Below are positions 5,286 to 53,673 of a stretch of DNA of 64,000 nt, piece after piece. The notes below the pieces were generated by a model. It was given only the letters and a program-made list of their open reading frames with translations, was not told the DNA's origin and did not search any database. The stretch is from Eledone cirrhosa (taxonomy: Eukaryota > Mollusca > Cephalopoda > Octopoda > Eledonidae). The stretch spans positions 39,742,485 to 39,806,484 of the forward strand of contig OZ024758.1 of the NCBI GenBank assembly GCA_964016885.1, written 5' to 3'. The stretch's first letter is position 1. Each line of letters begins with the position of its first letter. The translations under genes and the position numbers were made by a program.

Positions 5286-5335
5286 TTTTTTTTTCACACG
5301 TTTTTTAATATTTTTTATTAAAGCATATCGATGTA

Positions 5336-5360: not shown

Positions 5361-5364
5361 CGGT

Positions 5365-5380: not shown

Positions 5381-5492
5381 AAATTAGAAAACAAATTTAA
5401 GTTAATTAGAAAACAAGTCATGGTTATCAAATAAATTGGATTTAATCATATTTTCATAGTCATGGTTATCAATGTAGAAAACAAGTCATTTC
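5381..5492. repeat. Array lead-in with short direct repeats
   Basis: AGAAAACAAGTCAT and AGTCATGGTTATCAA each occur twice between about 5407 and 5490. The second copy runs straight into the first full 54-bp unit at about 5493, so slippage-type duplication also affected the edge of the array. Confidence 0.65.
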
Positions 5493-6005
5493 CACCAACA
5501 GTGGAGTTACTTCTGACAGCTAGTAACATGAACTTAAATGAATTCTCACCAACATTGGAGTTACTTCTGACAGCTAATACCATGAACTTAAATGAATTCT
5601 CTCCAACATTGGAGTTACTTCTGACAGCTAGTACCATGAACTTAAATGAATTCTCACCAACAGTGGAGTTACTTCTGACAGCTAATACCATGAACTTAAA
5701 TGAATTCTCACCAACAGTGGAGTTAATTCTGACAGCTAGTACCATGAACTTAAATGAATTCTCACCAACAGTGGAGTTACTTCTGACAGCTAGTACCATG
5801 AACTTAAATGAATTCTCACCAACATTGGAGTTACTTCTGACAGCTAGTTCCATGAACTTAAATGAATTCTCACCAACAGTGGAGTTACTTCTGACAGCTA
5901 ATACCATGAACTTAAATGAATTCTCACCAACAGTGGAGTTCCTTCTGACAGCTAGTACCATGAACTTAAATGAATTCTCACCAACATTGGAGTTACTTCT
6001 GACAA

Positions 6006-9000
6006 CTAATACCATGACTTAAATGAATTCTCACCAACAGTGGAGTTACTTCTGACAACTAATACCATGAACTTAAATGAATTCTCACCAACAGTGGAGT
6101 TACTTCTGACAGCTAGTACCATGAACTTAAATGAATTCTCACCAACAGTGGAGTTACTTCTGACAGCTAATACCATGAACTTAAATGAATTCTCACCAAC
6201 AGTGGAGTTACTTCTGACAGCTAATACCATGAACTTAAATGAATTCTCACCAACATTGGAGTTACTTCTGACAGCTAGTACCATGAACTTAAATGAATTC
6301 TCACCAACAGTGGAGTTACTTCTGACAGCTAATACCATGAACTTAAATGAATTCTCACCAACAGTGGAGTTGCTTCTGACAGCTAATACCATGAACTTAA
6401 ATGAATTCTCACCAACAGTGGAGTTACTTCTGACAGCTAGTACCATGACTTAAATGAATTCTCACCAACATTGGAGTTACTTCTGACAGCTAATACCATG
6501 AACTTAAATGAATTCTCACCAACAGTGGAGTTCCTTCTGACAGCTAGTACCATGAACTTAAATGAATTCTCACCAACAGTGGAGTTACTTCTGACAGCTA
6601 GTACCATGAACTTAAATGTATTCTCACCAACAGTGGAGTTACTTCTGACAGCTAATACCATGAACTTAAATGAATTCTCACCAACAGTAGAGTTCCTTCT
6701 GACAGCTAATACCATGAACTTAAATGAATTCTCACCAACAGTGGAGTTACTTCTGACAGCTAGTACCATGACTTAAATGAATTCTCACCAACAATGGAGT
6801 TACTTCTGACAGCTAATACCATGACTTAAATGAATTCTCACCAACAGTGGAGTTACTTCTGACAGCTAATACCATGAACTTAAATGAATTCTCACCAACA
6901 GTGGAGTTACTTCTGACAGCTAGTACCATGAACTTAAATGAATTCTCACCAACATTGGAGTTACTTCTGACAGCTAGTACCATGAACTTAAATGAATTCT
7001 CACCAACAGTGGAGTTCCTTCTGACAGCTAATACCATGAACTTAACTGAATTCTCACCAACATTGGAGTTAATTCTGACAGCTAGTACCATGACTCAAAT
7101 GAATTCTCACCAACATTGGAGTTACTTCTGACAGCTAATACCATGACTTAAATGAATTCTCACCAACAGTGGAGTTACTTCTGACAGCTAGTAACATGAA
7201 CTTAAATGAATTCTCACCAACATTGGAGTTACTTCTGACAGCTAATACCATGAACTTAAATGAATTCTCTCCAACATTGGAGTTACTTCTGACAGCTAGT
7301 ACCATGAACTTAAATGAATTCTCACCAACAGTGGAGTTACTTCTGACAGCTAATACCATGAACTTAAATGAATTCTCACCAACAGTGGAGTTAATTCTGA
7401 CAGCTAGTACCATGAACTTAAATGAATTCTCACCAACAGTGGAGTTACTTCTGACAGCTAGTACCATGAACTTAAATGAATTCTCACCAACATTGGAGTT
7501 ACTTCTGACAGCTAGTACCATGAACTTAAATGAATTCTCACCAACAGTGGAGTTACTTCTGACAGCTAATACCATGAACTTAAATGAATTCTCACCAACA
7601 GTGGAGTTCCTTCTGACAGCTAGTACCATGAACTTAAATGAATTCTCACCAACAGTGGAGTTACTTCTGACAGCTAGTACCATGAACTTAAATGAATTCT
7701 CACCAACAGTGGAGTTACTTCTGACAACTAATACCATGAACTTAAATGAATTCTCACCAACAGTGGAGTTCCTTCTGACAGCTAGTACCATGAACTTAAA
7801 TGAATTCTCACCAACAGTGGAGTTACTTCTGACAGCTAGTACCATGAACTTAAATGAATTCTCACCAACATTGGAGTTACTTCTGACAGCTAATACCATG
7901 ACTTAAATGAATTCTCACCAACAGTGGAGTTACTTCTGACAGCTAATACCATGAACTTAAATGAATTCTCACCAACAGTGGAGTTACTTCTGACAGCTAG
8001 AAACATGAACTTAAATGAATTCTCACCAACATTGGAGTTACTTCTGACAACTAATACCATGACTTAAATGAATTCTCACCAACAGTGGAGTTACTTCTGA
8101 CAACTAATACCATGAACTTAAATGAATTCTCACCAACAGTGGAGTTACTTCTGACAGCTAGTACCATGAACTTAAATGAATTCTCACCAACAGTGGAGTT
8201 ACTTCTGACAGCTAATACCATGAACTTAAATGAATTCTCACCAACAGTGGAGTTACTTCTGACAGCTAATACCATGAACTTAAATGAATTCTCACCAACA
8301 TTGGAGTTACTTCTGACAGCTAGTACCATGAACTTAAATGAATTCTCACCAACAGTGGAGTTACTTCTGACAGCTAATACCATGAACTTAAATGAATTCT
8401 CACCAACAGTGGAGTTGCTTCTGACAGCTAATACCATGAACTTAAATGAATTCTCACCAACAGTGGAGTTACTTCTGACAGCTAGTACCATGACTTAAAT
8501 GAATTCTCACCAACATTGGAGTTACTTCTGACAGCTAATACCATGAACTTAAATGAATTCTCACCAACAGTGGAGTTCCTTCTGACAGCTAGTACCATGA
8601 ACTTAAATGAATTCTCACCAACAGTGGAGTTACTTCTGACAGCTAGTACCATGAACTTAAATGTATTCTCACCAACAGTGGAGTTACTTCTGACAGCTAA
8701 TACCATGAACTTAAATGAATTCTCACCAACAGTAGAGTTCCTTCTGACAGCTAATACCATGAACTTAAATGAATTCTCACCAACAGTGGAGTTACTTCTG
8801 ACAGCTAGTACCATGACTTAAATGAATTCTCACCAACAATGGAGTTACTTCTGACAGCTAATACCATGACTTAAATGAATTCTCACCAACAGTGGAGTTA
8901 CTTCTGACAGCTAATACCATGAACTTAAATGAATTCTCACCAACAGTGGAGTTACTTCTGACAGCTAGTACCATGAACTTAAATGAATTCTCACCAACAT

Positions 9001-9190
9001 TGGAGTTACTTCTGACAGCTAGTACCATGAACTTAAATGAATTCTTACCAACAGTGGAGTTACTTCTGACAGCTAATACCATGAACTTAAATGAATTCTC
9101 ACCAACAGTGGAGTTCCTTCTGACAGCTAATACCATGAACTTAACTGAATTCTCACCAACATTGGAGTTAATTCTGACAGCTAGTACCAT
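6006..9190. repeat. Multi-unit duplication, 2045-bp offset
   Basis: The blocks near 6006-7091 and 8051-9190 match, including the private variant AAATGTATTC at 6614 and 8659, exactly 2045 bp apart. One extra unit is present in the second copy near 9040. An overlapping older duplication at 1668 bp is marked by TAGTAACATG at 5521 and 7189. Confidence 0.85.
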
Positions 9191-12100
9191 GACTCAAATG
9201 AATTCTCAGCAACATTGGAGTTACTTCTGACAGCTAATACCATGACTTAAATGAATTCTCACCAACAGTGGAGTTACTTCTGACAGCTAATACAATGAAC
9301 TTAAATGAATTCTCACCAACAGTGGAGTTGCTTCTGACAGCTAGTACCATGACTTAAATGAATTCTCACCAACAGTGGAGTTACTTCTGACAACTAATAC
9401 CATGAACTTAAATGAATTCTCACCAACATTGGAGTTACTTCTGACAGCTAATACCATGACTTAAATGAATTCTCACCAACAGTGGAGTTACTTCTGACAG
9501 CTAGTACCATGAACTTAAATGAATTCTCACCAACAGTGGAGTTACTTCTGACAACTAATACCATGAACTTAAATGAATTCTCACCAACATTGGAGTTACT
9601 TCTGACAGCTAATACCATGACTTAAATGAATTCTCACCAACAGTGGAGTTACTTCTGACAGCTAATACCATGAACTTAAATGAATTCTCACCAACAGTGG
9701 AGTTCCTTCTGACAGCTAGTACCATGAACTTAAATGAATTCTCACCAACATTGGAGTTACTTCTGAGAGCTAGTACCATGACTTAAATGAATTCTCACCA
9801 ACATTGGAGTTACTTCTGACAGCTAATAACATGACTTAAATGAATTCTCACCAACAGTGGAGTTACTTCTGACAGCTAATACCATGAACTTAAATGAATT
9901 CTCACCAACAGTGGAGTTACTTCTAAAAGCTAGTACCATGAACTTAAATGAATTCTCACCAACATTGGAGTTACTTCTGACAACTAATACCATGACTTAA
10001 ATGAATTCTCACCAACAGTGGAGTTACTTCTGACAGCTAATACCATGAACTTAAATGAATTCTCACCAACAGTGGAGTTACTTCTGACAGCTAGTACCAT
10101 GAACTTAAATGAATTCTCACCAACATTGGAGTTACTTCTGACAACTAATACCATGACTTAAATGAATTCTCACCAACAGTGGAGTTACTTCTGACAAACT
10201 AATACCATGAACTTAAATGAATTCTCACCAACAGTGGAGTTACTTCTGACAGCTAGTACCATGAACTTAAATGAATTCTCACCAACATTGGAGTTACTTC
10301 TGACAACTAATACCATGATTTAAATGAATTCTCACCAACAGTGGAGTTACTTCTGACAACTAACACCATGAACTTAACTGAATTCTCACCAACAGTGGAG
10401 TTACTTCTGACAGCTAGTACCATGAACTTAAATGAATTCTCACCAACAGTGGAGTTACTTCTGACAGCTAGTACCATGAACTTAAATGAATTCTTACCAA
10501 CAGTGGAGTTACTTCTGACAGCTAATACCATGAACTTAAATGAATTCTCACCAACAGTGGACTTCCTTCTGACAGCTAATACCATGAACTTAACTGAATT
10601 CTCACCAACATTGGAGTTAATTCTGACAGCTAGTAACATGACTCAAATGAATTCTCACCAACATTGGAGTTACTTCTGACAGCTAATACCATGACTTAAA
10701 TGAATTCTCACCAACAGTGGAGTTACTTCTGACAGCTAATACCATGAACTTAAATGAATTCTCACCAACAGTGGAGTTACTTCTGACAGCTAGTACCATG
10801 AACTTAAATGAATTCTCACCAACATTGGAGTTACTTCTGACAACTAATACCATGACTTAAATGAATTCTCACCAACAGTGGAGTTACTTCTGACAAACTA
10901 ATACCATGAACTTAAATGAATTCTCACCAACAGTGGAGTTACTTCTGACAGCTAATACCATGAACTTAAATGAATTCTCACCAACATTGGAGTTACTTCT
11001 GACAGCTAGTACCATTACTTAAATGAATTCTCACCAACATTGGAGTTACTTCTGACAACTAATACCATGACTTAAATGAATTCTCACCAACAGTGGAGTT
11101 ACTTCTGACAAACTAATACCATGAACTTAAATGAATTCTCACCAACAGTGGAGTTACTTCTGACAGCTAATACCATGAACTTAAATGAATTCTCACCAAC
11201 AGTAGAGTTCCTTCTGACAGCTAATACCATGAACTTAAATGAATTCTCACCAACAGTGGAGTTACTTCTGACAGCTAGTACCATGACTTAAATGAATTCT
11301 CACCAACAGTGGAGTTACTTCTGACAGCTAATACCATGAACTTAAATGAATTCTCACCAACAGTGGAGTTACTTCTGACAGCTAGTACCATGAACTTAAA
11401 TGAATTCTCACCAACATTGGAGTTACTTCTGACAGCTAGTACCATGAACTTAAATGAATTCTTACCAACAGTGGAGTTACTTCTGACAGCTAATACCATG
11501 AACTTAAATGAATTCTCACCAACAGTGGAGTTCCTTCTGACAGCTAATACCATGAACTTAACTGAATTCTCACCAACATTGGAGTTAATTCTGACAGCTA
11601 GTACCATGACTCAAATGAATTCTCACCAACATTGGAGTTACTTCTGACAGCTAATACCATGACTTAAATGAATTCTCACCAACAGTGGAGTTACTTCTGA
11701 CAGCTAATACAATGAACTTAAATGAATTCTCACCAACAGTGGAGTTGCTTCTGACAGCTAGTACCATGACTTAAATGAATTCTCACCAACAGTGGAGTTA
11801 CTTCTGACAACTAATACCATGAACTTAAATGAATTCTCACCAACATTGGAGTTACTTCTGACAGCTAATACCATGACTTAAATGAATTCTCACCAACAGT
11901 GGAGTTACTTCTGACAGCTAGTACCATGAACTTAAATGAATTCTCACCAACAGTGGAGTTACTTCTGACAACTAATACCATGAACTTAAATGAATTCTCA
12001 CCAACATTGGAGTTACTTCTGACAGCTAATACCATGACTTAAATGAATTCTCACCAACAGTGGAGTTACTTCTGACAGCTAATACCATGAACTTAAATGA

Positions 12101-27700: not shown

Positions 27701-29682
27701 AACTTAAATGAATTCTCACCAACATTGGGGTTACTTCTGACAGCTAGTACCATGAACTTAAATGAATTCTCACCAACAGTGGAGTGACTTCTGACAGCTA
27801 ATACCATGAACTTAAATGAATTCTCACCAACATTGGAGTGACTTCTGACAGCTAATACCATGAACTTAAATGAATTCTCACCAACATTGGGGTTACTTCT
27901 GACAGCTAGTACCATGAACTTAAATGAATTCTCACCAACAGTGGAGTTACTTCTGACAGCTAATACCATGAACTTAAATGAATTCTCACCAACAGTGGAG
28001 TTACTTCTGACAGCTAGTAACATGAACTTAAATGAATTCTCACCAACAGTGGAGTTACTTCTGACAGCTAATACAATGAACTTAAATGAATTCTCACCAA
28101 CATTGGAGTTACTTCTGACAGCTAGTACCATGAACTTAAATGAATTCTCACCAACAGTGGAGTTACTTCTGACAGCTAGTACCATGAACTTAAATGAATT
28201 CTCACCAACATTGGAGTTACTTCTGACAACTAATACCAAGACTTAAATGAATTCTCACCAACAGTGGAGTTCCTTCTGACAGCTAATACCATGAACTTAA
28301 ATGAATTCTCACCAACATTGGAGTTACTTCTGACAGCTAATACCATGAACTTAAATGAATTCTCACCAACATTGGAGTTACTTCTGACAGCTAGTACCAT
28401 GAACTTAAATGAATTCTCACCAACAGTGGAGTTACTTCTGACAGCTAGTACCATGAACTTAAATGAATTCTCACCAACAGTGGAGTTACTTCTGACAGCT
28501 AATACCATGAACTTAAATGAATTCTAACCAACAGTGGAGTTACTTCTGACAGCTAGTACCATGACTTAAATGAATTCTCATCAACATTGGAGTTCCTTCT
28601 GACAGCTAATACCATGAACTTAAATGAATTCTCACCAACAGTGGAGTTACTTCTGACAGCTAATACCATGAACTTAAATGAATTCTCACCAACATTGGAT
28701 TTACTTCTGACAGCTAATACCATGACTTAAATGAATTCTCACCAACAGTGGAGTTCCTTGTGACAGCTAATACCATGAACTTAAATGAATTCTCACCAAC
28801 ATTAGAGTTACTTCTGACAGCTAGTACCATGAACTTAAATGAATTCTCACCAACAGTGGAGTTCCTTCTGACAGCTAATACCATGAACTTAAATGAATTC
28901 TCACCAACATTGGAGTTACTTCTGACAGCTAGTACCATGACTTAAATGAATTCTCACCAACATTGGAGTTACTTCTGACAACTAATACCATGACTTAAAT
29001 GAATTCTCACCAACAGTGGAGTTACTTCTGACGAACTGATACCATGAACTTAAATGAATTCTCACCAACAGTGGAGTTACTTCTGACAACTAGTACCATG
29101 AACTTAAATGAATTCTCACCAACAGTGGAGTTACTTCTGACAGCTAATACCATGAACTTAAATGAATTCTCACCAACAGTGGAGTTCCTTCTGACAGCTA
29201 ATACCATGAACTTAAATGAATTCTCACCAACAGTGGAGTTACTTCTGACAGCTAGTACCATGACTTAAATGAATTCTCACCAACATTGGAGTTCCTTCTG
29301 ACAGCTAATACCATGAACTTAAATGAATTCTCACCAACAGTGGAGTTACTTCTGACAGCTAATACCATGAACTTAAATGAATTCTCACCAACAGTGGAGT
29401 TGCTTCTGACAGCTAATACCATGAACTTAAACGAATTCTCACCAACAGTGGAGTTACTTCTGACAGCTAATACCATGAACTTAAATGAATTCTCACCAAC
29501 ATTGGAGTGACTTCTGACAGCTAATACCATGAACTTAAATGAATTATCACCAACATTGGGGTTACTTCTGACAGCTAGTACCATGCACTTAAATGAATTC
29601 TCACCAACAGTGGAGTGACTTCTAACAGCTAATACCATGAACTTAAATGAATTCTCACCAACATTGGAGTGACTTCTGACAG

Positions 29683-32600
29683 CTAACACCAAGACTTAAA
29701 TGAATTCTCACCAACAGTGGAGTTCCTTCTGACAGCTAATACCATGAACTTAAATGAATTCTCACCAACAGTGGAGTTACTTCTGACAGCTAATACCATG
29801 AACTTAAATGAATTCTCACCAACAGTGGAGTTACTTCTGACAGCTAATACCATGAACTTAAATGCATTCTCACCAACATTGGAGTGACTTCTGACAGCTA
29901 GTACCATGAACTTAAATGAATTCTCACCAACAGTGGAGTTACTTCTGACAGCTAATACCATGAACTTAAATGAATTCTCACCAACATTGGAGTTACTTCT
30001 GACAGCTAGTACCATGAACTTAAATGAATTCTCACCAACAGTGGAGTTACTTCTGGCAGCTAGTACCATGAACTTAAATGAATTCTCACCAACATTGGAG
30101 TTACTTCTGACAACTAATACCAAGACTTAAATGAATTCTCACCAACAGTGGAGTTCCTTCTGACAGCTAATACCATGAACTTAAATGAATTCTCACCAAC
30201 ATTGGAGTTACTTCTGACAGCTAATACCATGAACTTAAATGAATTCTCACCAACATTGGAGTTACTTCTGACAGCTAGTACCATGAACTTAAATGAATTC
30301 TCACCAACAGTGGAGTTACTTCTGACAGCTAGTACCATGAACTTAAATGAATTCTCACCAACATTGGAGTTACTTCTGACAACTAACACCAAGACTTAAA
30401 TGAATTCTCACCAACAGTGGAGTTCCTTCTGACAGCTAATACCATGAACTTAAATGAATTCTCACCAACAGTGGAGTTACTTCTGACAGCTAATACCATG
30501 AACTTAAATGAATTCTCACCAACAGTGGAGTGACTTCTGACAGCTAATACCATGAACTTAAATGAATTCTCACCAACAGTGGAGTTACTTCTGACAGCTA
30601 ATACCATGAACTTAAATGAATTCTCACCAACATTGGAGTGACTTCTGACAGCTAATACCATGAACTTAAATGAATTCTCACCAACATTGGGGTTACTTCT
30701 GACAGCTAGTACCATGAACTTAAATGAATTCTCACCAACAGTGGAGTGACTTCTGACAGCTAATACCATGAACTTAAATGAATTCTCACCAACATTGGAG
30801 TGACTACTGACAGCTAATACCATGAACTTAAATGAATTCTCACCAACATTGGGGTTACTTCTGACAGCTAGTACCATGAACTTAAATGAATTCTCACCAA
30901 CAGTGGAGTTACTTCTGACAGCTAATACCATGAACTTAAATGAATTCTCACCAACAGTGGAGTTACTTCTGACAGCTAGTACCATGAACTTAAATGAATT
31001 CTCACCAACAGTGGAGTTACTTCTGACAGCTAATACCATGAACTTAAATGAATTCTCACCAACATTGGAGTTACTTCTGACAGCTAGTACCATGAACTTA
31101 AATGAATTCTCACCAACAGTGGAGTTACTTCTGACAGCTAGTACCATGACCTTAAATGAATTCTCACCAACATTGGTGTTACTTCTGACAACTAATACCA
31201 AGACTTAAATGAATTCTCACCAACAGTGGAGTTCCTTCTGACAGCTAATACCATGAACTTAAATGAATTCTCACCAACATTGGAGTTACTTCTGACAGCT
31301 AATACCATGAACTTAAATGAATTCTCACCAACATTGGAGTGACTTCTGACAGCTAATACCATGAACTTAAATGAATTATCACCAACATTGGGGTTACTTC
31401 TGACAGCTAGTACCATGCACTTAAATGAATTCTCACCAACAGTGGAGTGACTTCTAACAGCTAATACCATGAACTTAAATGAATTCTCACCAACATTGGA
31501 GTGACTTCTGACAGCTAACACCAAGACTTAAATGAATTCTCACCAACAGTGGAGTTCCTTCTGACAGCTAATACCATGAACTTAAATGAATTCTCACCAA
31601 CAGTGGAGTTACTTCTGACAGCTAATACCATGAACTTAAATGAATTCTCACCAACAGTGGAGTTACTTCTGACAGCTAATACCATGAACTTAAATGCATT
31701 CTCACCAACATTGGAGTGACTTCTGACAGCTAGTACCATGAACTTAAATGAATTCTCACCAACAGTGGAGTTACTTCTGACAGCTAATACCATGAACTTA
31801 AATGAATTCTCACCAACATTGGAGTTACTTCTGACAGCTAGTACCATGAACTTAAATGAATTCTCACCAACAGTGGAGTTACTTCTGGCAGCTAGTACCA
31901 TGAACTTAAATGAATTCTCACCAACATTGGAGTTACTTCTGACAACTAATACCAAGACTTAAATGAATTCTCACCAACAGTGGAGTTCCTTCTGACAGCT
32001 AATACCATGAACTTAAATGAATTCTCACCAACATTGGAGTTACTTCTGACAGCTAATACCATGAACTTAAATGAATTCTCACCAACATTGGAGTTACTTC
32101 TGACAGCTAGTACCATGAACTTAAATGAATTCTCACCAACAGTGGAGTTACTTCTGACAGCTAGTACCATGAACTTAAATGAATTCTCACCAACATTGGA
32201 GTTACTTCTGACAACTAACACCAAGACTTAAATGAATTCTCACCAACAGTGGAGTTCCTTCTGACAGCTAATACCATGAACTTAAATGAATTCTCACCAA
32301 CAGTGGAGTTACTTCTGACAGCTAATACCATGAACTTAAATGAATTCTCACCAACAGTGGAGTGACTTCTGACAGCTAATACCATGAACTTAAATGAATT
32401 CTCACCAACAGTGGAGTTACTTCTGACAGCTAATACCATGAACTTAAATGAATTCTCACCAACATTGGAGTGACTTCTGACAGCTAATACCATGAACTTA
32501 AATGAATTCTCACCAACATTGGGGTTACTTCTGACAGCTAGTACCATGAACTTAAATGAATTCTCACCAACAGTGGAGTGACTTCTGACAGCTAATACCA

Positions 32601-35600
32601 TGAACTTAAATGAATTCTCACCAACATTGGAGTGACTACTGACAGCTAATACCATGAACTTAAATGAATTCTCACCAACATTGGGGTTACTTCTGACAGC
32701 TAGTACCATGAACTTAAATGAATTCTCACCAACAGTGGAGTTACTTCTGACAGCTAATACCATGAACTTAAATGAATTCTCACCAACAGTGGAGTTACTT
32801 CTGACAGCTAGTACCATGAACTTAAATGAATTCTCACCAACAGTGGAGTTACTTCTGACAGCTAATACCATGAACTTAAATGAATTCTCACCAACATTGG
32901 AGTTACTTCTGACAGCTAGTACCATGAACTTAAATGAATTCTCACCAACAGTGGAGTTACTTCTGACAGCTAGTACCATGACCTTAAATGAATTCTCACC
33001 AACATTGGTGTTACTTCTGACAACTAATACCAAGACTTAAATGAATTCTCACCAACAGTGGAGTTCCTTCTGACAGCTAATACCATGAACTTAAATGAAT
33101 TCTCACCAACATTGGAGTTACTTCTGACAGCTAATACCATGAACTTAAATGAATTCTCACCAACATTGGAGTTACTTCTGACAGCTAGTACCATGGACTT
33201 AAATGAATTCTCACCAACAGTGGAGTTACTTCTGACAGCTAGTACCATGAACTTAAATGAATTCTCACCAACATTGGAGTTACTTCTGACAGCTAATACC
33301 ATGAACTTAAATGAATTCTCACCAACAGTGGAGTTACTTCTGACAGCTAGTACCATGAACTTAAATGAATTCTCACCAACAGTGGAGTTACTTCTGACAG
33401 CTAATACCATGAACTTAAATGAATTCTCACCAACATTGGAGTTACTTCTGACAGCTAGTACCATGAACTTAAATGAATTCTCACCAACAGTGGAGTTACT
33501 TCTGACAGCTAGTACCATGACCTTAAATGAATTCTCACCAACATTGGTGTTACTTCTGACAACTAATACCAAGACTTAAATGAATTCTCACCAACAGTGG
33601 AGTTCCTTCTGACAGCTAATACCATGAACTTAAATGAATTCTCACCAACATTGGAGTTACTTCTGACAGCTAATACCATGAACTTAAATGAATTCTCACC
33701 AACATTGGAGTGACTTCTGACAGCTAATACCATGAACTTAAATGAATTATCACCAACATTGGGGTTACTTCTGACAGCTAGTACCATGCACTTAAATGAA
33801 TTCTCACCAACAGTGGAGTGACTTCTAACAGCTAATACCATGAACTTAAATGAATTCTCACCAACATTGGAGTGACTTCTGACAGCTAACACCAAGACTT
33901 AAATGAATTCTCACCAACAGTGGAGTTCCTTCTGACAGCTAATACCATGAACTTAAATGAATTCTCACCAACAGTGGAGTTACTTCTGACAGCTAATACC
34001 ATGAACTTAAATGAATTCTCACCAACAGTGGAGTTACTTCTGACAGCTAATACCATGAACTTAAATGCATTCTCACCAACATTGGAGTGACTTCTGACAG
34101 CTAGTACCATGAACTTAAATGAATTCTCACCAACAGTGGAGTTACTTCTGACAGCTAATACCATGAACTTAAATGAATTCTCACCAACATTGGAGTTACT
34201 TCTGACAGCTAGTACCATGAACTTAAATGAATTCTCACCAACAGTGGAGTTACTTCTGGCAGCTAGTACCATGAACTTAAATGAATTCTCACCAACATTG
34301 GAGTTACTTCTGACAACTAATACCAAGACTTAAATGAATTCTCACCAACAGTGGAGTTCCTTCTGACAGCTAATACCATGAACTTAAATGAATTCTCACC
34401 AACATTGGAGTTACTTCTGACAGCTAATACCATGAACTTAAATGAATTCTCACCAACATTGGAGTTACTTCTGACAGCTAGTACCATGAACTTAAATGAA
34501 TTCTCACCAACAGTGGAGTTACTTCTGACAGCTAGTACCATGAACTTAAATGAATTCTCACCAACATTGGAGTTACTTCTGACAACTAACACCAAGACTT
34601 AAATGAATTCTCACCAACAGTGGAGTTCCTTCTGACAGCTAATACCATGAACTTAAATGAATTCTCACCAACAGTGGAGTTACTTCTGACAGCTAATACC
34701 ATGAACTTAAATGAATTCTCACCAACAGTGGAGTGACTTCTGACAGCTAATACCATGAACTTAAATGAATTCTCACCAACAGTGGAGTTACTTCTGACAG
34801 CTAATACCATGAACTTAAATGAATTCTCACCAACATTGGAGTGACTTCTGACAGCTAATACCATGAACTTAAATGAATTCTCACCAACATTGGGGTTACT
34901 TCTGACAGCTAGTACCATGAACTTAAATGAATTCTCACCAACAGTGGAGTGACTTCTGACAGCTAATACCATGAACTTAAATGAATTCTCACCAACATTG
35001 GAGTGACTACTGACAGCTAATACCATGAACTTAAATGAATTCTCACCAACATTGGGGTTACTTCTGACAGCTAGTACCATGAACTTAAATGAATTCTCAC
35101 CAACAGTGGAGTTACTTCTGACAGCTAATACCATGAACTTAAATGAATTCTCACCAACAGTGGAGTTACTTCTGACAGCTAGTACCATGAACTTAAATGA
35201 ATTCTCACCAACAGTGGAGTTACTTCTGACAGCTAATACCATGAACTTAAATGAATTCTCACCAACATTGGAGTTACTTCTGACAGCTAGTACCATGAAC
35301 TTAAATGAATTCTCACCAACAGTGGAGTTACTTCTGACAGCTAGTACCATGACCTTAAATGAATTCTCACCAACATTGGTGTTACTTCTGACAACTAATA
35401 CCAAGACTTAAATGAATTCTCACCAACAGTGGAGTTCCTTCTGACAGCTAATACCATGAACTTAAATGAATTCTCACCAACATTGGAGTTACTTCTGACA
35501 GCTAATACCATGAACTTAAATGAATTCTCACCAACATTGGAGTTACTTCTGACAGCTAGTACCATGGACTTAAATGAATTCTCACCAACAGTGGAGTTAC

Positions 35601-35673
35601 TTCTGACAGCTAGTACCATGAACTTAAATGAATTCTCACCAACATTGGAGTTACTTCTGACAACTAACACCAA
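29683..35673. repeat. Triplicated block, offsets 1832 and 2371 bp
   Basis: The private change TTCTGGCAGC occurs at 30051, 31883 and 34254, offsets 1832 and 2371 bp. The second interval is 539 bp longer, equal to ten units less one base, so an extra ten-unit segment was gained there. Confidence 0.88.
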
Positions 35674-39180: not shown

Positions 39181-41265
39181 ATGAATTCTCACCAACAGTG
39201 GAGTTCCTTCTGACAGCTAATACCATGAACTTAAATGAATTCTCACCAACATTGGAGTTACTTCTGACAGCTAGTACCATGAACTTAAATGAATTCTCAC
39301 CAACAGTGGAGTTACTTCTGATAGCTAATACCATGAACTTAAATGAATTCTCACCAACAGTGGCGTTCCTTCTGACAGCTAATACCATGAACTTAAATGA
39401 ATTCTCACCAACAGTGGAGTTACTTCTGACAGCTAGTACCATGACTTAAATGAATTCTCACCAACATTGGAGTTCCTTCTGACAGGTAATACCATGAACT
39501 TAAATGAATTCTCACCAACAGTGGAGTTACTTCTGACAGCTAATACCATGAACTTAAATGAATTCTCACCAACAGTGGAGTTACTTCTGACAGCTAATAC
39601 CATGAACTTAAATGAATTCTCACCAACAGTGGAGTTACTTCTGACAGCTAATACCATGAACTTAAATGAATTCTCACCAACATTGGAGTGACTTCTGACA
39701 GCTAATACCATGAACTTAAATGAATTCTCAGCAACATTGGGGTTACTTCTGACAGCTAGTACCATGAACTTAAATGAATTCTCACCAACAGTGGAGTGAC
39801 TTCTGACAGCTAATACCATGAACTTAAATGAATTCTAACCAACATTGGAGTGACTTCTGACAGCTAATACCATGAACTTAAATGAATTCTCACCAACATT
39901 GGGGTTACTTCTGACAGCTAGTACCATAAACTTAAATGAATTCTCACCAACAGTGGAGTTACTTCTGACAGCTAGTACCATGAACTTAAATGAATTCTCA
40001 CCAACAGTGGAGTTACTTCTGACAGCTAATATCATGAACTTAAATGAATTCTTACCAACATTGGAGTTACTTCTGACAGCTAGTACCATGAACTTAAATG
40101 AATTCTCACCAACAGTGGAGTTACTTCTGACAACTAGTACCATGAACTTAAATGAATTCTCACCAACAGTGGAGTTACTTCTGACAGCTAATACCATGAA
40201 CTTAAATGAATTATCACCAACAGTGGAGTTCCTTCTGACAGCTAATACCATGAACTTAAATGAATTCTCACCAACATTGGAGTTACTTCTGACAGCTAGT
40301 ACCATGAACTTAAATGAATTCTCACCAACAGTGGAGTTACTTCTGACAGCTAATACCATGAACTTAAATGAATTCTCACCAACAGTGGCGTTCCTTCTGA
40401 CAGCTAATACCATGAACTTAAATGAATTCTCACCAACAGTGGAGTTACTTCTGACAGCTAGTACCATGACTTAAATTAATTCTCACCAACATTGGAGTTC
40501 CTTCTGACAGCTAATACCATGAACTTAAATGAATTCTCACCAACAGTGGAGTTACTTCTGACAGCTAATACCATGAACTTAAATGAATTCTCACCAACAG
40601 TGGAGTTGCTTCTGACAGCTAATACCATGAACTTAAATGAATTCTCACCAACAGTGGAGTTACTTCTGACAGCTAATACCATGAACTTAAATGAATTCTC
40701 ACCAACATTGGAGTGACTTCTGACAGCTAATACCATGAACTTAAATGAATTCTCACCAACATTGGGGTTACTTCTGACAGCTAGTACCATGAACTTAAAT
40801 GAATTCTCACCAACATTGGAGTTACTTCTGACAACTAACACCAAGACTTAAATGAATTCTCACCAACAGTGGAGTTACTTCTGACAGCTAATACCATGAA
40901 CTTAAACGAATTCTCACCAACAGTGGAGTTACTTCTGACAGCTAATACCATGAACTTAAATGAATTCTCACCAACATTGGAGTGACTTCTGACAGCTAAT
41001 ACCATGAACTTAAATGAATTCTCACCAACATTGGGGTTACTTCTGACAGCTAGTACCATGAACTTAAATGAATTCTCACCAACAGTGGAGTGACTTCTAA
41101 CAGCTAATACCATGAACTTAAATGAATTCTCACCAACATTGGAGTTCCTTCTGACAGCTAATACCATGAACTTAAATGAATTCTCACCAACAGTGGAGTT
41201 ACTTCTGACAGCTAATACCATGAACTTAAATGAATTCTCACCAACATTGGATTTACTTCTGACAG

Positions 41266-44200
41266 CTAATACCATGAATTAAATGAATTCTCACCAACAG
41301 TGGAGTTCCTTGTGACAGCTAATACCATGAACGTAAATGAATTCTCACCAACATTGGAGTTACTTCTGACAGCTAGTACCATGAACTTAAATGAATTCTC
41401 ACCAACAGTGGAGTTACTTCTGACAGCTAGTACCATGAACTTAAATGAATTCTCACCAACATTGGAGTTACTTCTGACAACTAATACCAAGACTTAAATG
41501 AATTCTCACCAACAGTGGAGTTCCTTCTGACAGCTAATACCATGAACTTAAATGAATTCTCACCAACATTGGAGTTACTTCTGACAGCTAGTACCATGAA
41601 CTTAAATGAATTCTCACCAACAGTGGAGTTACTTCTGATAGCTAATACCATGAACTTAAATGAATTCTCACCAACAGTGGCGTTCCTTCTGACAGCTAAT
41701 ACCATGAACTTAAATGAATTCTCACCAACAGTGGAGTTACTTCTGACAGCTAGTACCATGACTTAAATGAATTCTCACCAACATTGGAGTTCCTTCTGAC
41801 AGGTAATACCATGAACTTAAATGAATTCTCACCAACAGTGGAGTTACTTCTGACAGCTAATACCATGAACTTAAATGAATTCTCACCAACAGTGGAGTTA
41901 CTTCTGACAGCTAATACCATGAACTTAAATGAATTCTCACCAACAGTGGAGTTACTTCTGACAGCTAATACCATGAACTTAAATGAATTCTCACCAACAT
42001 TGGAGTGACTTCTGACAGCTAATACCATGAACTTAAATGAATTCTCAGCAACATTGGGGTTACTTCTGACAGCTAGTACCATGAACTTAAATGAATTCTC
42101 ACCAACAGTGGAGTGACTTCTGACAGCTAATACCATGAACTGAAATGAATTCTCACCAACATTGGAGTGACTTCTGACAGCTAATACCATGAACTTAAAT
42201 GAATTCTCACCAACATTGGGGTTACTTCTGACAGCTAGTACCATAAACTTAAATGAATTCTCACCAACAGTGGAGTTACTTCTGACAGCTAGTACCATGA
42301 ACTTAAATGAATTCTCACCAACAGTGGAGTTACTTCTGACAGCTAATATCATGAACTTAAATGAATTCTTACCAACATTGGAGTTACTTCTGACAGCTAG
42401 TACCATGAACTTAAATGAATTCTCACCAACAGCGGAGTTACTTCTGACAACTAGTACCATGAACTTAAATGAATTCTCACCAACAGTGGAGTTACTTCTG
42501 ACAGCTAATACCATGAACTTAAATGAATTATCACCAACAGTGGAGTTCCTTCTGACAGCTAATACCATGAACTTAAATGAATTCTCACCAACAGTGGAGT
42601 TACTTCTGACAGCTAATACCATGAACTTAAATGAATTCTCACCAACAGTGGAGTTCCTTCTGACAGCTAATACCATGAACTTAAATGAATTCTCACCAAC
42701 ATTGGAGTTACTTCTGACAGCTAGTACCATGAACTTAAATGAATTCTCACCAACAGTGGAGTTACTTCTGACAGCTAATACCATGAACTTAAATGAATTC
42801 TCACCAACAGTGGCGTTCCTTCTGACAGCTAATACCATGAACTTAAATGAATTCTCACCAACAGTGGAGTTACTTCTGACAGCTAGTACCATGACTTAAA
42901 TGAATTCTCACCAACATTGGAGTTCCTTCTGACAGCTAATACCATGAACTTAAATGAATTCTCACCAACAGTGGAGTTACTTCTGACAGCTAATACCATG
43001 AACTTAAATGAATTCTCACCAACAGTGGAGTTGCTTCTGACAGCTAATACCATGAACTTAAATGAATTCTCACCAACAGTGGAGTTACTTCTGACAGCTA
43101 ATACCATGAACTTAAATGAATTCTCACCAACATTGGAGTGACTTCTGACAGCTAATACCATGAACTTAAATGAATTCTCACCAACATTGGGGTTACTTCT
43201 GACAGCTAGTACCATGAACTTAAATGAATTCTCACCAACATTGGAGTTACTTCTGACAACTAACACCAAGACTTAAATGAATTCTCACCAACAGTGGAGT
43301 TACTTCTGACAGCTAATACCATGAACTTAAACGAATTCTCACCAACAGTGGAGTTACTTCTGACAGCTAATACCATGAACTTAAATGAATTCTCACCAAC
43401 ATTGGAGTGACTTCTGACAGCTAATACCATGAACTTAAATGAATTCTCACCAACATTGGGGTTACTTCTGACAGCTAGTACCATGAACTTAAATGAATTC
43501 TCACCAACAGTGGAGTGACTTCTAACAGCTAATACCATGAACTTAAATGAATTCTCACCAACAGTTAAGTTCCTTCTGACAGCTAATACCATGAACTTAA
43601 ATGAATTCTCACCAACATTGGAGTTACTTCTGACAGCTAGTACCATGAACTTAAATGAATTCTCACCAACAGTGGAGTTACTTCTGACAGCTAATACCAT
43701 GAACTTAAATGAATTCTCACCAACAGTGGCGTTCCTTCTGACAGCTAATACCATGAACTTAAATGAATTCTCACCAACAGTGGAGTTACTTCTGACAGCT
43801 AGTACCATGACTTAAATGAATTCTCACCAACATTGGAGTTCCTTCTGACAGCTAATACCATGAACTTAAATGAATTCTCACCAACAGTGGAGTTACTTCT
43901 GACAGCTAATACCATGAACTTAAATGAATTCTCACCAACAGTGGAGTTGCTTCTGACAGCTAATACCATGAACTTAAATGAATTCTCACCAACAGTGGAG
44001 TTACTTCTGACAGCTAATACCATGAACTTAAATGAATTCTCACCAACATTGGAGTGACTTCTGACAGCTAATACCATGAACTTAAATGAATTCTCACCAA
44101 CATTGGGGTTACTTCTGACAGCTAGTACCATGAACTTAAATGAATTCTCACCAACATTGGAGTTACTTCTGACAACTAACACCAAGACTTAAATGAATTC

Positions 44201-47200
44201 TCACCAACAGTGGAGTTACTTCTGACAGCTAATACCATGAACTTAAACGAATTCTCACCAACAGTGGAGTTACTTCTGACAGCTAATACCATGAACTTAA
44301 ATGAATTCTCACCAACATTGGAGTGACTTCTGACAGCTAATACCATGAACTTAAATGAATTCTCACCAACATTGGGGTTACTTCTGACAGCTAGTACCAT
44401 GAACTTAAATGAATTCTCACCAACAGTGGAGTGACTTCTAACAGCTAATACCATGAACTTAAATGAATTCTCACCAACATTGGAGTTCCTTCTGACAGCT
44501 AATACCATGAACTTAAATGAATTCTCACCAACAGTGGAGTTACTTCTGACAGCTAATACCATGAACTTAAATGAATTCTCACCAACATTGGATTTACTTC
44601 TGACAGCTAATACCATGAATTAAATGAATTCTCACCAACAGTGGAGTTCCTTGTGACAGCTAATACCATGAACGTAAATGAATTCTCACCAACATTGGAG
44701 TTACTTCTGACAGCTAGTACCATGAACTTAAATGAATTCTCACCAACAGTGGAGTTACTTCTGACAGCTAGTACCATGAACTTAAATGAATTCTCACCAA
44801 CATTGGAGTTACTTCTGACAACTAATACCAAGACTTAAATGAATTCTCACCAACAGTGGAGTTCCTTCTGACAGCTAATACCATGAACTTAAATGAATTC
44901 TCACCAACATTGGAGTTACTTCTGACAGCTAGTACCATGAACTTAAATGAATTCTCACCAACAGTGGAGTTACTTCTGACAGCTAATACCATGAACTTAA
45001 ATGAATTCTCACCAACATTGGATTTACTTCTGACAGCTAATACCATGAATTAAATGAATTCTCACCAACAGTGGAGTTCCTTGTGACAGCTAATACCATG
45101 AACGTAAATGAATTCTCACCAACATTGGAGTTACTTCTGACAGCTAGTACCATGAACTTAAATGAATTCTCACCAACAGTGGAGTTACTTCTGACAGCTA
45201 GTACCATGAACTTAAATGAATTCTCACCAACATTGGAGTTACTTCTGACAACTAATACCAAGACTTAAATGAATTCTCACCAACAGTGGAGTTCCTTCTG
45301 ACAGCTAATACCATGAACTTAAATGAATTCTCACCAACATTGGAGTTACTTCTGACAGCTAGTACCATGAACTTAAATGAATTCTCACCAACAGTGGAGT
45401 TACTTCTGATAGCTAATACCATGAACTTAAATGAATTCTCACCAACAGTGGCGTTCCTTCTGACAGCTAATACCATGAACTTAAATGAATTCTCACCAAC
45501 AGTGGAGTTACTTCTGACAGCTAGTACCATGACTTAAATGAATTCTCACCAACATTGGAGTTCCTTCTGACAGGTAATACCATGAACTTAAATGAATTCT
45601 CACCAACAGTGGAGTTACTTCTGACAGCTAATACCATGAACTTAAATGAATTCTCACCAACAGTGGAGTTACTTCTGACAGCTAATACCATGAACTTAAA
45701 TGAATTCTCACCAACAGTGGAGTTACTTCTGACAGCTAATACCATGAACTTAAATGAATTCTCACCAACATTGGAGTGACTTCTGACAGCTAATACCATG
45801 AACTTAAATGAATTCTCAGCAACATTGGGGTTACTTCTGACAGCTAGTACCATGAACTTAAATGAATTCTCACCAACAGTGGAGTGACTTCTGACAGCTA
45901 ATACCATGAACTGAAATGAATTCTCACCAACATTGGAGTGACTTCTGACAGCTAATACCATGAACTTAAATGAATTCTCACCAACATTGGGGTTACTTCT
46001 GACAGCTAGTACCATAAACTTAAATGAATTCTCACCAACAGTGGAGTTACTTCTGACAGCTAGTACCATGAACTTAAATGAATTCTCACCAACAGTGGAG
46101 TTACTTCTGACAGCTAATATCATGAACTTAAATGAATTCTTACCAACATTGGAGTTACTTCTGACAGCTAGTACCATGAACTTAAATGAATTCTCACCAA
46201 CAGCGGAGTTACTTCTGACAACTAGTACCATGAACTTAAATGAATTCTCACCAACAGTGGAGTTACTTCTGACAGCTAATACCATGAACTTAAATGAATT
46301 ATCACCAACAGTGGAGTTCCTTCTGACAGCTAATACCATGAACTTAAATGAATTCTCACCAACAGTGGAGTTACTTCTGACAGCTAATACCATGAACTTA
46401 AATGAATTCTCACCAACAGTGGAGTTCCTTCTGACAGCTAATACCATGAACTTAAATGAATTCTCACCAACATTGGAGTTACTTCTGACAGCTAGTACCA
46501 TGAACTTAAATGAATTCTCACCAACAGTGGAGTTACTTCTGACAGCTAATACCATGAACTTAAATGAATTCTCACCAACAGTGGCGTTCCTTCTGACAGC
46601 TAATACCATGAACTTAAATGAATTCTCACCAACAGTGGAGTTACTTCTGACAGCTAGTACCATGACTTAAATGAATTCTCACCAACATTGGAGTTCCTTC
46701 TGACAGCTAATACCATGAACTTAAATGAATTCTCACCAACAGTGGAGTTACTTCTGACAGCTAATACCATGAACTTAAATGAATTCTCACCAACAGTGGA
46801 GTTGCTTCTGACAGCTAATACCATGAACTTAAATGAATTCTCACCAACAGTGGAGTTACTTCTGACAGCTAATACCATGAACTTAAATGAATTCTCACCA
46901 ACATTGGAGTGACTTCTGACAGCTAATACCATGAACTTAAATGAATTCTCACCAACATTGGGGTTACTTCTGACAGCTAGTACCATGAACTTAAATGAAT
47001 TCTCACCAACATTGGAGTTACTTCTGACAACTAACACCAAGACTTAAATGAATTCTCACCAACAGTGGAGTTACTTCTGACAGCTAATACCATGAACTTA
47101 AACGAATTCTCACCAACAGTGGAGTTACTTCTGACAGCTAATACCATGAACTTAAATGAATTCTCACCAACATTGGAGTGACTTCTGACAGCTAATACCA

Positions 47201-48807
47201 TGAACTTAAATGAATTCTCACCAACATTGGGGTTACTTCTGACAGCTAGTACCATGAACTTAAATGAATTCTCACCAACAGTGGAGTGACTTCTAACAGC
47301 TAATACCATGAACTTAAATGAATTCTCACCAACAGTTAAGTTCCTTCTGACAGCTAATACCATGAACTTAAATGAATTCTCACCAACATTGGAGTTACTT
47401 CTGACAGCTAGTACCATGAACTTAAATGAATTCTCACCAACAGTGGAGTTACTTCTGACAGCTAATACCATGAACTTAAATGAATTCTCACCAACAGTGG
47501 CGTTCCTTCTGACAGCTAATACCATGAACTTAAATGAATTCTCACCAACAGTGGAGTTACTTCTGACAGCTAGTACCATGACTTAAATGAATTCTCACCA
47601 ACATTGGAGTTCCTTCTGACAGCTAATACCATGAACTTAAATGAATTCTCACCAACAGTGGAGTTACTTCTGACAGCTAATACCATGAACTTAAATGAAT
47701 TCTCACCAACAGTGGAGTTGCTTCTGACAGCTAATACCATGAACTTAAATGAATTCTCACCAACAGTGGAGTTACTTCTGACAGCTAATACCATGAACTT
47801 AAATGAATTCTCACCAACATTGGAGTGACTTCTGACAGCTAATACCATGAACTTAAATGAATTCTCACCAACATTGGGGTTACTTCTGACAGCTAGTACC
47901 ATGAACTTAAATGAATTCTCACCAACATTGGAGTTACTTCTGACAACTAACACCAAGACTTAAATGAATTCTCACCAACAGTGGAGTTACTTCTGACAGC
48001 TAATACCATGAACTTAAACGAATTCTCACCAACAGTGGAGTTACTTCTGACAGCTAATACCATGAACTTAAATGAATTCTCACCAACATTGGAGTGACTT
48101 CTGACAGCTAATACCATGAACTTAAATGAATTCTCACCAACATTGGGGTTACTTCTGACAGCTAGTACCATGAACTTAAATGAATTCTCACCAACAGTGG
48201 AGTGACTTCTAACAGCTAATACCATGAACTTAAATGAATTCTCACCAACATTGGAGTTCCTTCTGACAGCTAATACCATGAACTTAAATGAATTCTCACC
48301 AACAGTGGAGTTACTTCTGACAGCTAATACCATGAACTTAAATGAATTCTCACCAACATTGGATTTACTTCTGACAGCTAATACCATGAATTAAATGAAT
48401 TCTCACCAACAGTGGAGTTCCTTGTGACAGCTAATACCATGAACGTAAATGAATTCTCACCAACATTGGAGTTACTTCTGACAGCTAGTACCATGAACTT
48501 AAATGAATTCTCACCAACAGTGGAGTTACTTCTGACAGCTAGTACCATGAACTTAAATGAATTCTCACCAACATTGGAGTTACTTCTGACAACTAATACC
48601 AAGACTTAAATGAATTCTCACCAACAGTGGAGTTCCTTCTGACAGCTAATACCATGAACTTAAATGAATTCTCACCAACATTGGAGTTACTTCTGACAGC
48701 TAGTACCATGAACTTAAATGAATTCTCACCAACAGTGGAGTTACTTCTGATAGCTAATACCATGAACTTAAATGAATTCTCACCAACAGTGGCGTTCCTT
48801 CTGACAG
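41266..48807. repeat. 3771-bp tandem duplication, the largest recent block
   Basis: Blocks 41266-45036 and 45037-48807 match almost base for base. The private change CAGCGG (its AGCGG at 42431 and 46202) and the private AGTTAAG (43563 and 47334) are each 3771 bp apart. An inner 430-bp segment with TTCCTTGTGAC and AACGTAAATG occurs near 41250, 44591, 45021 and 48362, at spacings 3341, 430 and 3341. The joint therefore lies at the 430-bp segment. Confidence 0.92.
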
Positions 48808-50318
48808 CTAATACCATGAACTTAAATGAATTCTCACCAACAGTGGAGTTACTTCTGACAGCTAGTACCATGACTTAAATGAATTCTCACCAACATTGGA
48901 GTTCCTTCTGACAGGTAATACCATGAACTTAAATGAATTCTCACCAACAGTGGAGTTACTTCTGACAGCTAATACCATGAACTTAAATGAATTCTCACCA
49001 ACAGTGGAGTTACTTCTGACAGCTAATACCATGAACTTAAATGAATTCTCACCAACAGTGGAGTTACTTCTGACAGCTAATACCATGAACTTAAATGAAT
49101 TCTCACCAACATTGGAGTGACTTCTGACAGCTAATACCATGAACTTAAATGAATTCTCAGCAACATTGGGGTTACTTCTGACAGCTAGTACCATGAACTT
49201 AAATGAATTCTCACCAACAGTGGAGTGACTTCTGACAGCTAATACCATGAACTGAAATGAATTCTCACCAACATTGGAGTGACTTCTGACAGCTAATACC
49301 ATGAACTTAAATGAATTCTCACCAACATTGGGGTTACTTCTGACAGCTAGTACCATAAACTTAAATGAATTCTCACCAACAGTGGAGTTACTTCTGACAG
49401 CTAGTACCATTAACTTAAATGAATTCTCACCAACAGTGGAGTTACTTCTGACAGCTAATATCATGAACTTAAATGAATTCTTACCAACATTGGAGTTACT
49501 TCTGACAGCTAGTACCATGAACTTAAATGAATTCTCACCAACAGTGGAGTTACTTCTGACAGCTAATACCATGAACTTAAATGAATTATCACCAACAGTG
49601 GAGTTCCTTCTGACAGCTAATACCATGAACTTAAATGAATTCTCACCAACAGTGGAGTTACTTCTGACAGCTAATACCATGAACTTAAATGAATTCTCAC
49701 CAACAGTGGAGTTGCTTCTGACAGCTAATACCATGAACTTAAACGAATTCTCACCAACATTGGAGTGACTTCTGACAGCTAATACCATGAACTTAAATGA
49801 ATTCTCACCAACATTGGGGTTACTTCTGACAGCTAGTACCATGAACTTAAATGAATTCTCACCAACAGTGGAGTGACTTCTAACAGCTAATACCATGAAC
49901 TTAAATGAATTCTCACCAACATTGGAGTGACTTCTGACAGCTAATACCATGAACTTAAATGAATTCTCACCAACATTGGGGTTACTTCTGACAGCTAGTA
50001 CCATGAACTTAAATGAATTCTCACCAACAGTGGAGTTACTTCTGACAGCTAATACCATGAACTTAAATGAATTCTCACCAACAGTGGAGTTACTTCTGAC
50101 AGCTAGTACCATGAACTTAAATGAATTCTCACCAACAGTGGAGTTACTTCTGACAGCTAATACCATGAACTTAAATGAATTCTCACCAACATTGGAGTTA
50201 CTTCTGACAGCTAGTACCATGAACTTAAATGAATTCTCACCAACAGTGGAGTTACTTCTGACAGCTAGTACCATGAACTTAAATGAATTCTCACCAACAT
50301 TGGAGTTACTTCTGACAA

Positions 50319-51999
50319 CTAATACCAAGACTTAAATGAATTCTCACCAACAGTGGAGTTCCTTCTGACAGCTAATACCATGAACTTAAATGAATTCTCA
50401 CCAACATTGGAGTTACTTCTGACAGCTAGTACCATGAACTTAAATGAATTCTCACCAACAGTGGAGTTACTTCTGATAGCTAATACCATGAACTTAAATG
50501 AATTCTCACCAACAGTGGCGTTCCTTCTGACAGCTAATACCATGAACTTAAATGAATTCTCACCAACAGTGGAGTTACTTCTGACAGCTAGTACCATGAC
50601 TTAAATGAATTCTCACCAACATTGGAGTTCCTTCTGACAGGTAATACCATGAACTTAAATGAATTCTCACCAACAGTGGAGTTACGTCTGACAGCTAATA
50701 CCATGAACTTAAATGAATTCTCACCAACAGTGGAGTTACTTCTGACAGCTAATACCATGAACTTAAATGAATTCTCACCAACAGTGGAGTTACTTCTGAC
50801 AGCTAATACCATGAACTTAAATGAATTCTCACCAACATTGGAGTGACTTCTGACAGCTAATACCATGAACTTAAATGAATTCTCAGCAACATTGGGGTTA
50901 CTTCTGACAGCTAGTACCATGAACTTAAATGAATTCTCACCAACAGTGGAGTGACTTCTGACAGCTAATACCATGAACTTAAATGAATTCTAACCAACAT
51001 TGGAGTGACTTCTGACAGCTAATACCATGAACTTAAATGAATTCTCACCAACATTGGGGTTACTTCTGACAGCTAGTACCATAAACTTAAATGAATTCTC
51101 ACCAACAGTGGAGTTACTTCTGACAGCTAGTACCATGAACTTAAATGAATTCTCACCAACAGTGGAGTTACTTCTGACAGCTAATATCATGAACTTAAAT
51201 GAATTCTTCCCAACATTGGAGTTACTTCTGACAGCTAGTACCATGAACTTAAATGAATTCTCACCAACAGTGGAGTTACTTCTGACAACTAGTACCATGA
51301 ACTTAAATGAATTCTCACCAACAGTGGAGTTACTTCTGACAGCTAATACCATGAACTTAAATGAATTATCACCAACAGTGGAGTTCCTTCTGACAGCTAA
51401 TACCATGAACTTAAATGAATTCTCACCAACATTGGAGTTACTTCTGACAGCTAGTACCATGAACTTAAATGAATTCTCACCAACAGTGGAGTTACTTCTG
51501 ACAGCTAATACCATGAACTTAAATGAATTCTCACCAACAGTGGCGTTCCTTCTGACAGCTAATACCATGAACTTAAATGAATTCTCACCAACAGTGGAGT
51601 TACTTCTGACAGCTAGTACCATGACTTAAATGAATTCTCACCAACATTGGAGTTCCTTCTGACAGCTAATACCATGAACTTAAATGAATTCTCACCAACA
51701 GTGGAGTTACTTCTGACAGCTAATACCATGAACTTAAATGAATTCTCACCAACAGTGGAGTTGCTTCTGACAGCTAATACCATGAACTTAAATGAATTCT
51801 CACCAACAGTGGAGTTACTTCTGACAGCTAATACCATGAACTTAAATGAATTCTCACCAACATTGGAGTGACTTCTGACAGCTAATACCATGAACTTAAA
51901 TGAATTCTCACCAACATTGGGGTTACTTCTGACAGCTAGTACCATGAACTTAAATGAATTCTCACCAACATTGGAGTTACTTCTGACAACTAACACCAA
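50319..51999. repeat. 1.7-kb block duplicated from 39164-40844
   Basis: The same order of variants and of 53-bp units occurs at both places, 11155 bp apart over most of the length. Small private differences exist, for example TTCTTCCCAAC near 51207 against TTCTTACCAAC near 40052, so the copies are related but not identical. Confidence 0.8.
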
Positions 52000-52020
52000 G
52001 ACTTAAATGAATTCTCACCA

Positions 52021-53627: not shown

Positions 53628-53673
53628 GTTTCGGCCTGGATGGCGCGGCACCAACATAACTTTACATAGAACG

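Follow-up and report, generated by a model that had tools for sequence, protein, structure and literature searches.

Where does a long array of one short tandem repeat come from, and how does it grow? We addressed this question in a 64,000-nucleotide stretch of the genome of the octopod Eledone cirrhosa, hereafter the window (GenBank assembly GCA_964016885.1, 2.98 Gb in 1,582 contigs). It occupies positions 39,742,485-39,806,484 of contig OZ024758.1, which is called C19 here and is 40.2 Mb long. Much of the window is taken up by an array of a 54-bp unit that carries an EcoRI site. The array is an outlying fragment of a satellite that very probably originated within a foldback-like, non-autonomous DNA transposon, inside one of its terminal inverted repeats (TIRs). 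Most likely, a short duplication within the end of this widespread fold-back transposon grew into the satellite.

The array itself was delimited as follows.

5493..52020, plus strand: satellite array of 864 head-to-tail units of 53-55 bp (Tandem Repeats Finder, TRF, and consensus alignment)

The initial annotation, made from the letters alone, had described a 46.5-kb array of a 54-bp, EcoRI-bearing unit with no unrelated insertion, and both descriptions were borne out. TRF reported a single array from 5493 to 52020 with a period of 54, 864.1 copies, and 94% matches. Wrap-around alignment to the consensus resolved 864 complete units, most of which (707) are 54 bp long, the others measuring 53 bp (145 units) or 55 bp (12 units); since all of them are complete, no unrelated sequence lies inside. 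The site GAATTC was present in 848 of the 864 units and 850 times in the whole window, and unit position 53 was C in 856 units, A in eight, and T in none. There were 123 distinct unit sequences, and identity to the consensus averaged 96.8%, with a minimum of 88.9%. No sub-period was detected within the 54-bp unit, every rotation giving fewer than 22 matches of 54 (the best of unit shuffles averaged 20.7, with a 95% point of 24). As a long, non-coding, head-to-tail array of near-identical units, it is satellite DNA. In-silico EcoRI digestion released, among fragments below 200 bp, 675 of 54 bp, 144 of 53 bp, 15 of 108 bp, 12 of 55 bp, and one of 107 bp. Of the EcoRI ladder that had been predicted, the main band of about 54 bp from a full digest was retained, but little is expected above the dimer and no long ladder. 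The observed/expected ratio of CpG was 0.03 in the array and 0.68 in the flanks, and the unit consensus contains no CpG at all.

The origin of the satellite was traced from its left junction, where the following features were found.

5187..5492, plus strand: one half, a TIR, of a dispersed long-TIR, foldback-like element, starting GGCACTACAAC and adjoining the array directly (genome search, element copies)
5262..5285, plus strand: TIR module AAGTGGAGTTAAATAAATGAAATT, similar to part of the unit
5335..5358, plus strand: second TIR module, whose first 13 bases following AA match a unit word exactly
4880..5186, plus strand: DNA outside the element, copied along with the junction to C27 and to three further places on C19

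The whole assembly was searched with window positions 4880-5495 (616 bases), and the best 40 of 807 candidates were scored. Among the 155 matches there were, besides the window itself, four full-length copies at 98% (spanning 631 bases for the 616-base query), located at C27:13.25 Mb and at C19:35.36, 37.10, and 38.63 Mb. Three of these junction edges were read from the flank or TIR into the first units, and showed no difference from the window over 601, 301, and 321 bp. Since the full-length copies match and the edges are identical, the left junction itself was copied. The three C19 copies lie on the minus strand at a spacing of about 1.5-1.7 Mb.

The remaining left-flank matches were partial. 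Those listed begin at query position 277 or beyond, mostly at 297 or beyond (window 5176 or beyond), and are spread over many contigs, often as opposite-strand pairs. They represent an element dispersed in the genome, which has long inverted arms and begins GGCACTACAAC. At all four loci tested the inverted arms were 189-238 nt long and 97-99% complementary. The element TIR contains tandem sub-repeats, namely 87-bp repeats and, in 8 of 27 loci, 54-bp pairs. In a comparison for target-site duplications, the 8-bp flanks agreed in seven or eight letters in 6 of 12 both-ended loci (assessed by eye; one is a simple AT repeat). No transposase of the element turned up, although no search was aimed at one. 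Initial tests of the left flank by shuffling gave weak results, in that 1 of 100 shuffles was as good and 1 of 500 reached the 13-base exact unit word of the second module; they were superseded by the genome search. The left edge of the array is thus a transposon TIR containing the module of the unit, not unrelated DNA. The array had been credited with sharp edges, and it is indeed bounded at 5493 and 52020, but the left boundary is a TIR bearing the same module and the right one the start of a dispersed repeat.

The dispersed copies of the element contain what appears to be the ancestral form of the unit. Twenty-seven element loci were read, drawn from the best-ranked left-flank matches. The 41-bp core of the unit, with up to five mismatches, was present in 16 of the 27, in 31 instances altogether, whereas the reversed-core control gave none. 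The core was followed by a TATATTTTCATAG-like stretch in 23 instances, as part of an 87-bp sub-repeat, a context that is absent from the array, and by a TTAAATGAATTTT-like stretch in eight. The eight loci with 54-bp pairs, on C1, C2, C3, C4, and C15, carry two cores head to tail exactly 54 bp apart, and complete dispersed 54-bp units differ from the satellite consensus at one to three of 54 positions. All eight dispersed pairs have GAATTT, in contrast to GAATTC in the satellite, and the EcoRI site therefore looks like a private mutation of the founder. The most plausible reading of the site is that it marks the element copy that supplied the amplified 54-bp pair. Genome-wide, the GAATTT pattern gave 439 matches versus 121,298 for GAATTC. 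Among the first 100 GAATTT places listed, 62 were on C19 inside the array region and 38 on C1-C18, the latter mostly far apart, with seven clustered at C2:164.21-164.37 Mb.

The number of GAATTC matches came from an exact pattern search of the assembly with a 29-bp unit core (12,638 forward and 108,660 reverse), for which the reversed core gave no match. The same core is contained in 743 of the 864 window units, and scaling by this fraction puts the estimated total at about 141,000 units (about 7.6 Mb), on the assumption that arrays elsewhere are like that of the window. The satellite therefore has a high genomic copy number, as satellite DNA should, and the array in the window, far from being an isolated locus, is a minor outlier of a satellite that totals several megabases. 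Among the matches listed (the first 100 of 121,298), the core positions were at C19:33.516-33.522 Mb; because listings run in contig order and start at C19, the GAATTC core appears to be absent from C1-C18. A similarity search with two copies of the unit as query returned no match in the genome, but it skips very common words and is not read as absence. In the first 24 loci, located near the window, at the high end of C19, and at the contig start, no unit 12-mer occurred among 215,000 called bases.

Occupancy was determined by spot samples on C19 and C27. Of one set of 20 C19 samples, each 120-150 bp long, 15 (33.6-38.8 Mb) carried the unit on the minus strand, two (39.2 and 39.6 Mb) carried it on the plus strand, and three (33.40, 33.51, and 35.40 Mb) lacked it. 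Further C19 samples contained it on the minus strand at 35.48, 35.55, 35.62, 38.73, 39.0, 39.1, and 39.13 Mb and on the plus strand at 39.16, 39.18, 39.4, and 39.63 Mb, and lacked it at 35.43, 37.14, 37.17, 38.68, 39.665, and 39.70 Mb. The orientation of the C19 array thus switches between 39.13 and 39.16 Mb. On C27, the plus-strand unit was found at 13.26, 13.30, 13.40, 13.45, and 13.50 Mb, and was absent at 13.20 and 14.0 Mb. Five further samples consisted of N bases and were uninformative. The satellite was thereby sampled on C19 across 33.5-39.8 Mb and on C27.

On the right, the array is bounded by a different sequence.

52021..52420, plus strand: start of another dispersed repeat, bounding the array on the right (genome search)

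This repeat starts exactly at 52021 in 34 of the 39 other copies listed, and within four bases of it in the other five. Copies of 52021-52420 with 100% identity were listed on C27, C20, and C16, several per contig, which suggests recent duplication between contigs. At the array edge at C19:33.516 Mb, the outside sequence differs from that at 52020. One shared left edge together with differing right edges suggests descent from a single junction, and the right ends of the arrays may have been set by later breaks or insertions.

How the array grew was examined from the order of its units, in which three large duplications stand out.

41185..48726, plus strand: exact tandem duplication of a 70-unit block of 3,771 bp (41185-44955 = 44956-48726)
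30949..35636, plus strand: exact duplication of 43 units (30949-33265 and 33320-35636)
29494..33157, plus strand: 34 units duplicated exactly in tandem (29494-31325 = 31326-33157)

The longest exact duplicate runs comprised 70, 43, 34, 22, and 19 units, whereas shuffling the unit order (n=20) gave longest runs of just 4-5 units. Exact runs of at least eight units included 476 of the 864 units, and near-identical duplicate segments included 684. Support was thus obtained for the earlier suggestion of a satellite evolving by local duplication. Nested, partly diverged blocks also exist, for example one of 40 units with two mismatches. Identical neighbouring units were fewer than expected, with 29 of 863 pairs compared to 53.7 ± 6.6 for shuffled order, and none of 2,000 shuffles was as low. 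Since identical neighbours are fewer than chance while long blocks are repeated, single-unit slippage was not the main route; it is many-unit blocks, not single units, that duplicate. Both copies of the 70-unit block contain a further duplication, which has a step of 17 units and is exact over 16, and which is therefore probably older than the 70-unit duplication. Mean unit identity was flat along the array, at 0.946 for units one apart and 0.949-0.950 beyond, and no fixed higher-order period was found in the array, with no dominant lag beyond the individual block duplications. Such a pattern would be expected if whole blocks underwent unequal exchange or recombination-dependent replication, an enzymology that we infer. 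In the available part of PMC8122249, the higher-order repeats of primate alpha satellite are similar in that multi-unit blocks are amplified together and are more similar to each other than adjacent units are; the blocks here, however, are irregular in size and without a fixed period.

Taken together, these observations suggest a course of four steps. In dispersed TIRs, the 41-bp core runs in some cases into the TATATTTTCATAG-like stretch of the 87-bp sub-repeat; in others a TTAAATGAATTTT-like stretch leads from it to another core, and this arrangement makes up a 54-bp tandem pair. From the character states, one copy would then have changed from GAATTT to GAATTC, at an undated point, and that copy would have expanded. 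Expansion proceeded mainly through duplication of blocks of about 17-70 units rather than through single-unit slippage, as the pattern of repeated blocks indicates. Finally, the TIR/array junction, with the flank outside it, was copied to give the megabase-scale modules of C19 and the array on C27, as the samples show, and the orientation switch between C19 39.13 and 39.16 Mb belongs to this last step.

The near identity of the unit and the element module gives no direction by itself, and it would also be expected if the satellite were older and a transposon had captured its monomers into the TIR and then spread them. The GAATTT form is, moreover, present at a low level on C19. This reverse course is nevertheless very unlikely. 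All eight dispersed pairs have GAATTT though about 120,000 GAATTC copies would have been the obvious source, and the GAATTC form is seemingly absent from C1-C18, as inferred from the listing order. In addition, the core is found within the 87-bp sub-repeat, a context that the array lacks, and it is the TIR of the element that adjoins the array. A different objection is that the size of the array and its exact blocks could largely be products of assembly, through repeat expansion or duplicated haplotypes. The exact 3,771-bp block is what such an artefact would yield, junctions are identical between C19 and C27, and the copy number is known here from the assembly alone. Simple assembly duplication, however, does not give nested, partly diverged blocks, and the array edge at 52020 is unlike that at C19:33.516 Mb, so we consider this explanation unlikely.

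Several observations weigh against an origin of the satellite within the foldback-like TIR. The identical junctions and exact kilobase blocks could in part be assembly duplication. The 41-bp core is missing from 11 of the 27 element loci, and the proportions among these loci are not genome-wide, because they come from the best-ranked matches. The presence of GAATTT at a low level within the C19 arrays makes the GAATTC mutation not perfectly diagnostic. No element copy among those read combined GAATTC with both TIRs, as the founder would, and the other half of the element did not turn up at either the right edge of the window's array or the C19:33.516-Mb edge.

A protein-coding repeat gene was also considered and rejected. 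The unit consensus is open in frame 2 of the plus strand and frame 2 of the minus strand, one frame per strand, which would give an 18-residue protein repeat. The frame is shifted, however, by the 53-bp units (145 in all) and the 55-bp units (12), at most 27 units lie between successive frame-shifting units, and the distinct variants create stops in five and three cases in the two open frames. Of the 76 distinct variants, 14 were synonymous in one of these frames and 13 in the other (18% and 17%), against 27% and 25% expected. No Pfam family was found for the plus translation of the first ten units, and the four matches of the minus translation were all below curated cut-offs. A conserved frame, which would have pointed to a coding gene, was thus not supported by the frame-shifting units or by any synonymous excess, and we give a coding role practically no credence. 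The RNA fold of a 216-base stretch of the array was unremarkable (z-score -0.16), and Rfam at the gathering threshold and ARAGORN gave no match in the whole window.

As for function, the array most likely has no sequence-specific job; it would be passive DNA, rich in repeats, in a contig end where satellites abound. Megabase amounts sampled on C19, the apparent absence from C1-C18, and another satellite of about 166 kb that fills the high end of C19 are consistent with the centromere of one chromosome, or with heterochromatin of a sex or B chromosome. Such a role is possible but doubtful: a general centromere sequence would not be expected to be restricted to a few contigs, and the proposal comes from sequence. 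It is equally doubtful, if conceivable, that a single mutated copy of the foldback-like transposon has recently given rise to a multi-megabase satellite concentrated on one chromosome, growing as a module of half-element plus array, which may serve as a chromosome-specific centromere or as sex or B heterochromatin. The C19-end satellite consists of pentamers (loci L006-L022, L024, and the start of L003), with at least 13 kb more further in. In 160 kb, TTAGC occurred 14,734 times, TTAGG 8,205 times, and ATAGC 7,823 times, whereas TTAGGG was almost nil. These are telomere-like letters but not the TTAGGG motif, which is cited for an octopus in the available part of PMC13218726. The presence of this satellite makes a heterochromatic neighbourhood plausible, as far as sequence can indicate.

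The window also contains other repeats and open frames. A near-perfect palindrome at 376-726 has two 175-nt arms, 99% complementary, with 1 nt between them. An open frame at 1629-2132 has a GIY-YIG match barely over the Pfam cut-off. The 413-codon open frame at 2351-3589 surrounds a 96-bp tandem repeat (10.1 copies, 2494-3466) that keeps 32 residues in frame. Six copies of a 112-bp unit, with 97% identity, occupy 4139-4816, and unexpanded sequence similar to it was found at 53458-53601 and 58972-59115. Two inverted copies of a reverse-transcriptase element with PHD-like fingers lie at 53369-59204 (arms of about 2 kb, 84-90% alike). They are followed at 59734-63551 by a long terminal repeat (LTR)-retrotransposon-like element, with direct repeats about 3.5 kb apart and an open frame (60225-62630) with reverse transcriptase, RNase H, and integrase domains. 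Just past the right end of the window is a tandem array of a 61-bp unit, with 31 copies at 91% (L002:3339-5232).

We found no description of this satellite in the literature titles and abstract openings surveyed. The word 'satellite' had no word-start occurrence in the available main text of PMC13282606, on Octopus vulgaris repeats, or of PMC13218726, on a cuttlefish genome. A 22-mer of the unit had no match in viral or in prokaryote contig collections, which is uninformative for an animal satellite. The closest known system is Tetris, a foldback transposon of Drosophila virilis whose TIR-internal tandem repeats, TIR-220, supplied the building blocks of satellite arrays, according to the portion of PMC4079207 consulted. 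It is compared here by mechanism alone, and no sequence kinship is claimed. In both systems the element is non-coding with long, internally repetitive TIRs, and a TIR-internal tandem repeat gave satellite arrays that adjoin TIR sequence. They differ in unit size (54 bp here and about 220 bp in TIR-220) and in amount (an estimated 7.6 Mb or so here and kilobase-size arrays there). Unlike in Tetris, the founder mutation GAATTC here separates the satellite from its dispersed ancestors, and the junction itself was duplicated at megabase spacing. Long internally repetitive TIRs are likewise found in the Galileo/Foldback-like elements of Drosophila, Galileo being assigned to the P superfamily (PMC3573991 and PMC4168063, in the parts available). 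Among molluscs, the Helentron elements of the Pacific oyster are mobile elements that carry satellite-like tandem repeats (PMC7492417, in part); they belong to another element class and form short dispersed arrays, in contrast to the one megabase-scale block here.

The birth of a satellite from a transposon TIR is therefore already known from Tetris, and it is the completeness of the record that is unusual here. Satellite births usually leave no trace. A single assembly here holds the probable dispersed ancestors, the founder mutation, the half-transposon edge, and duplications at both kilobase and megabase scale. The EcoRI site provides a simple assay that largely separates the amplified satellite from its dispersed ancestors. 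With all these stages in one assembly, models of satellite birth and growth become directly testable.

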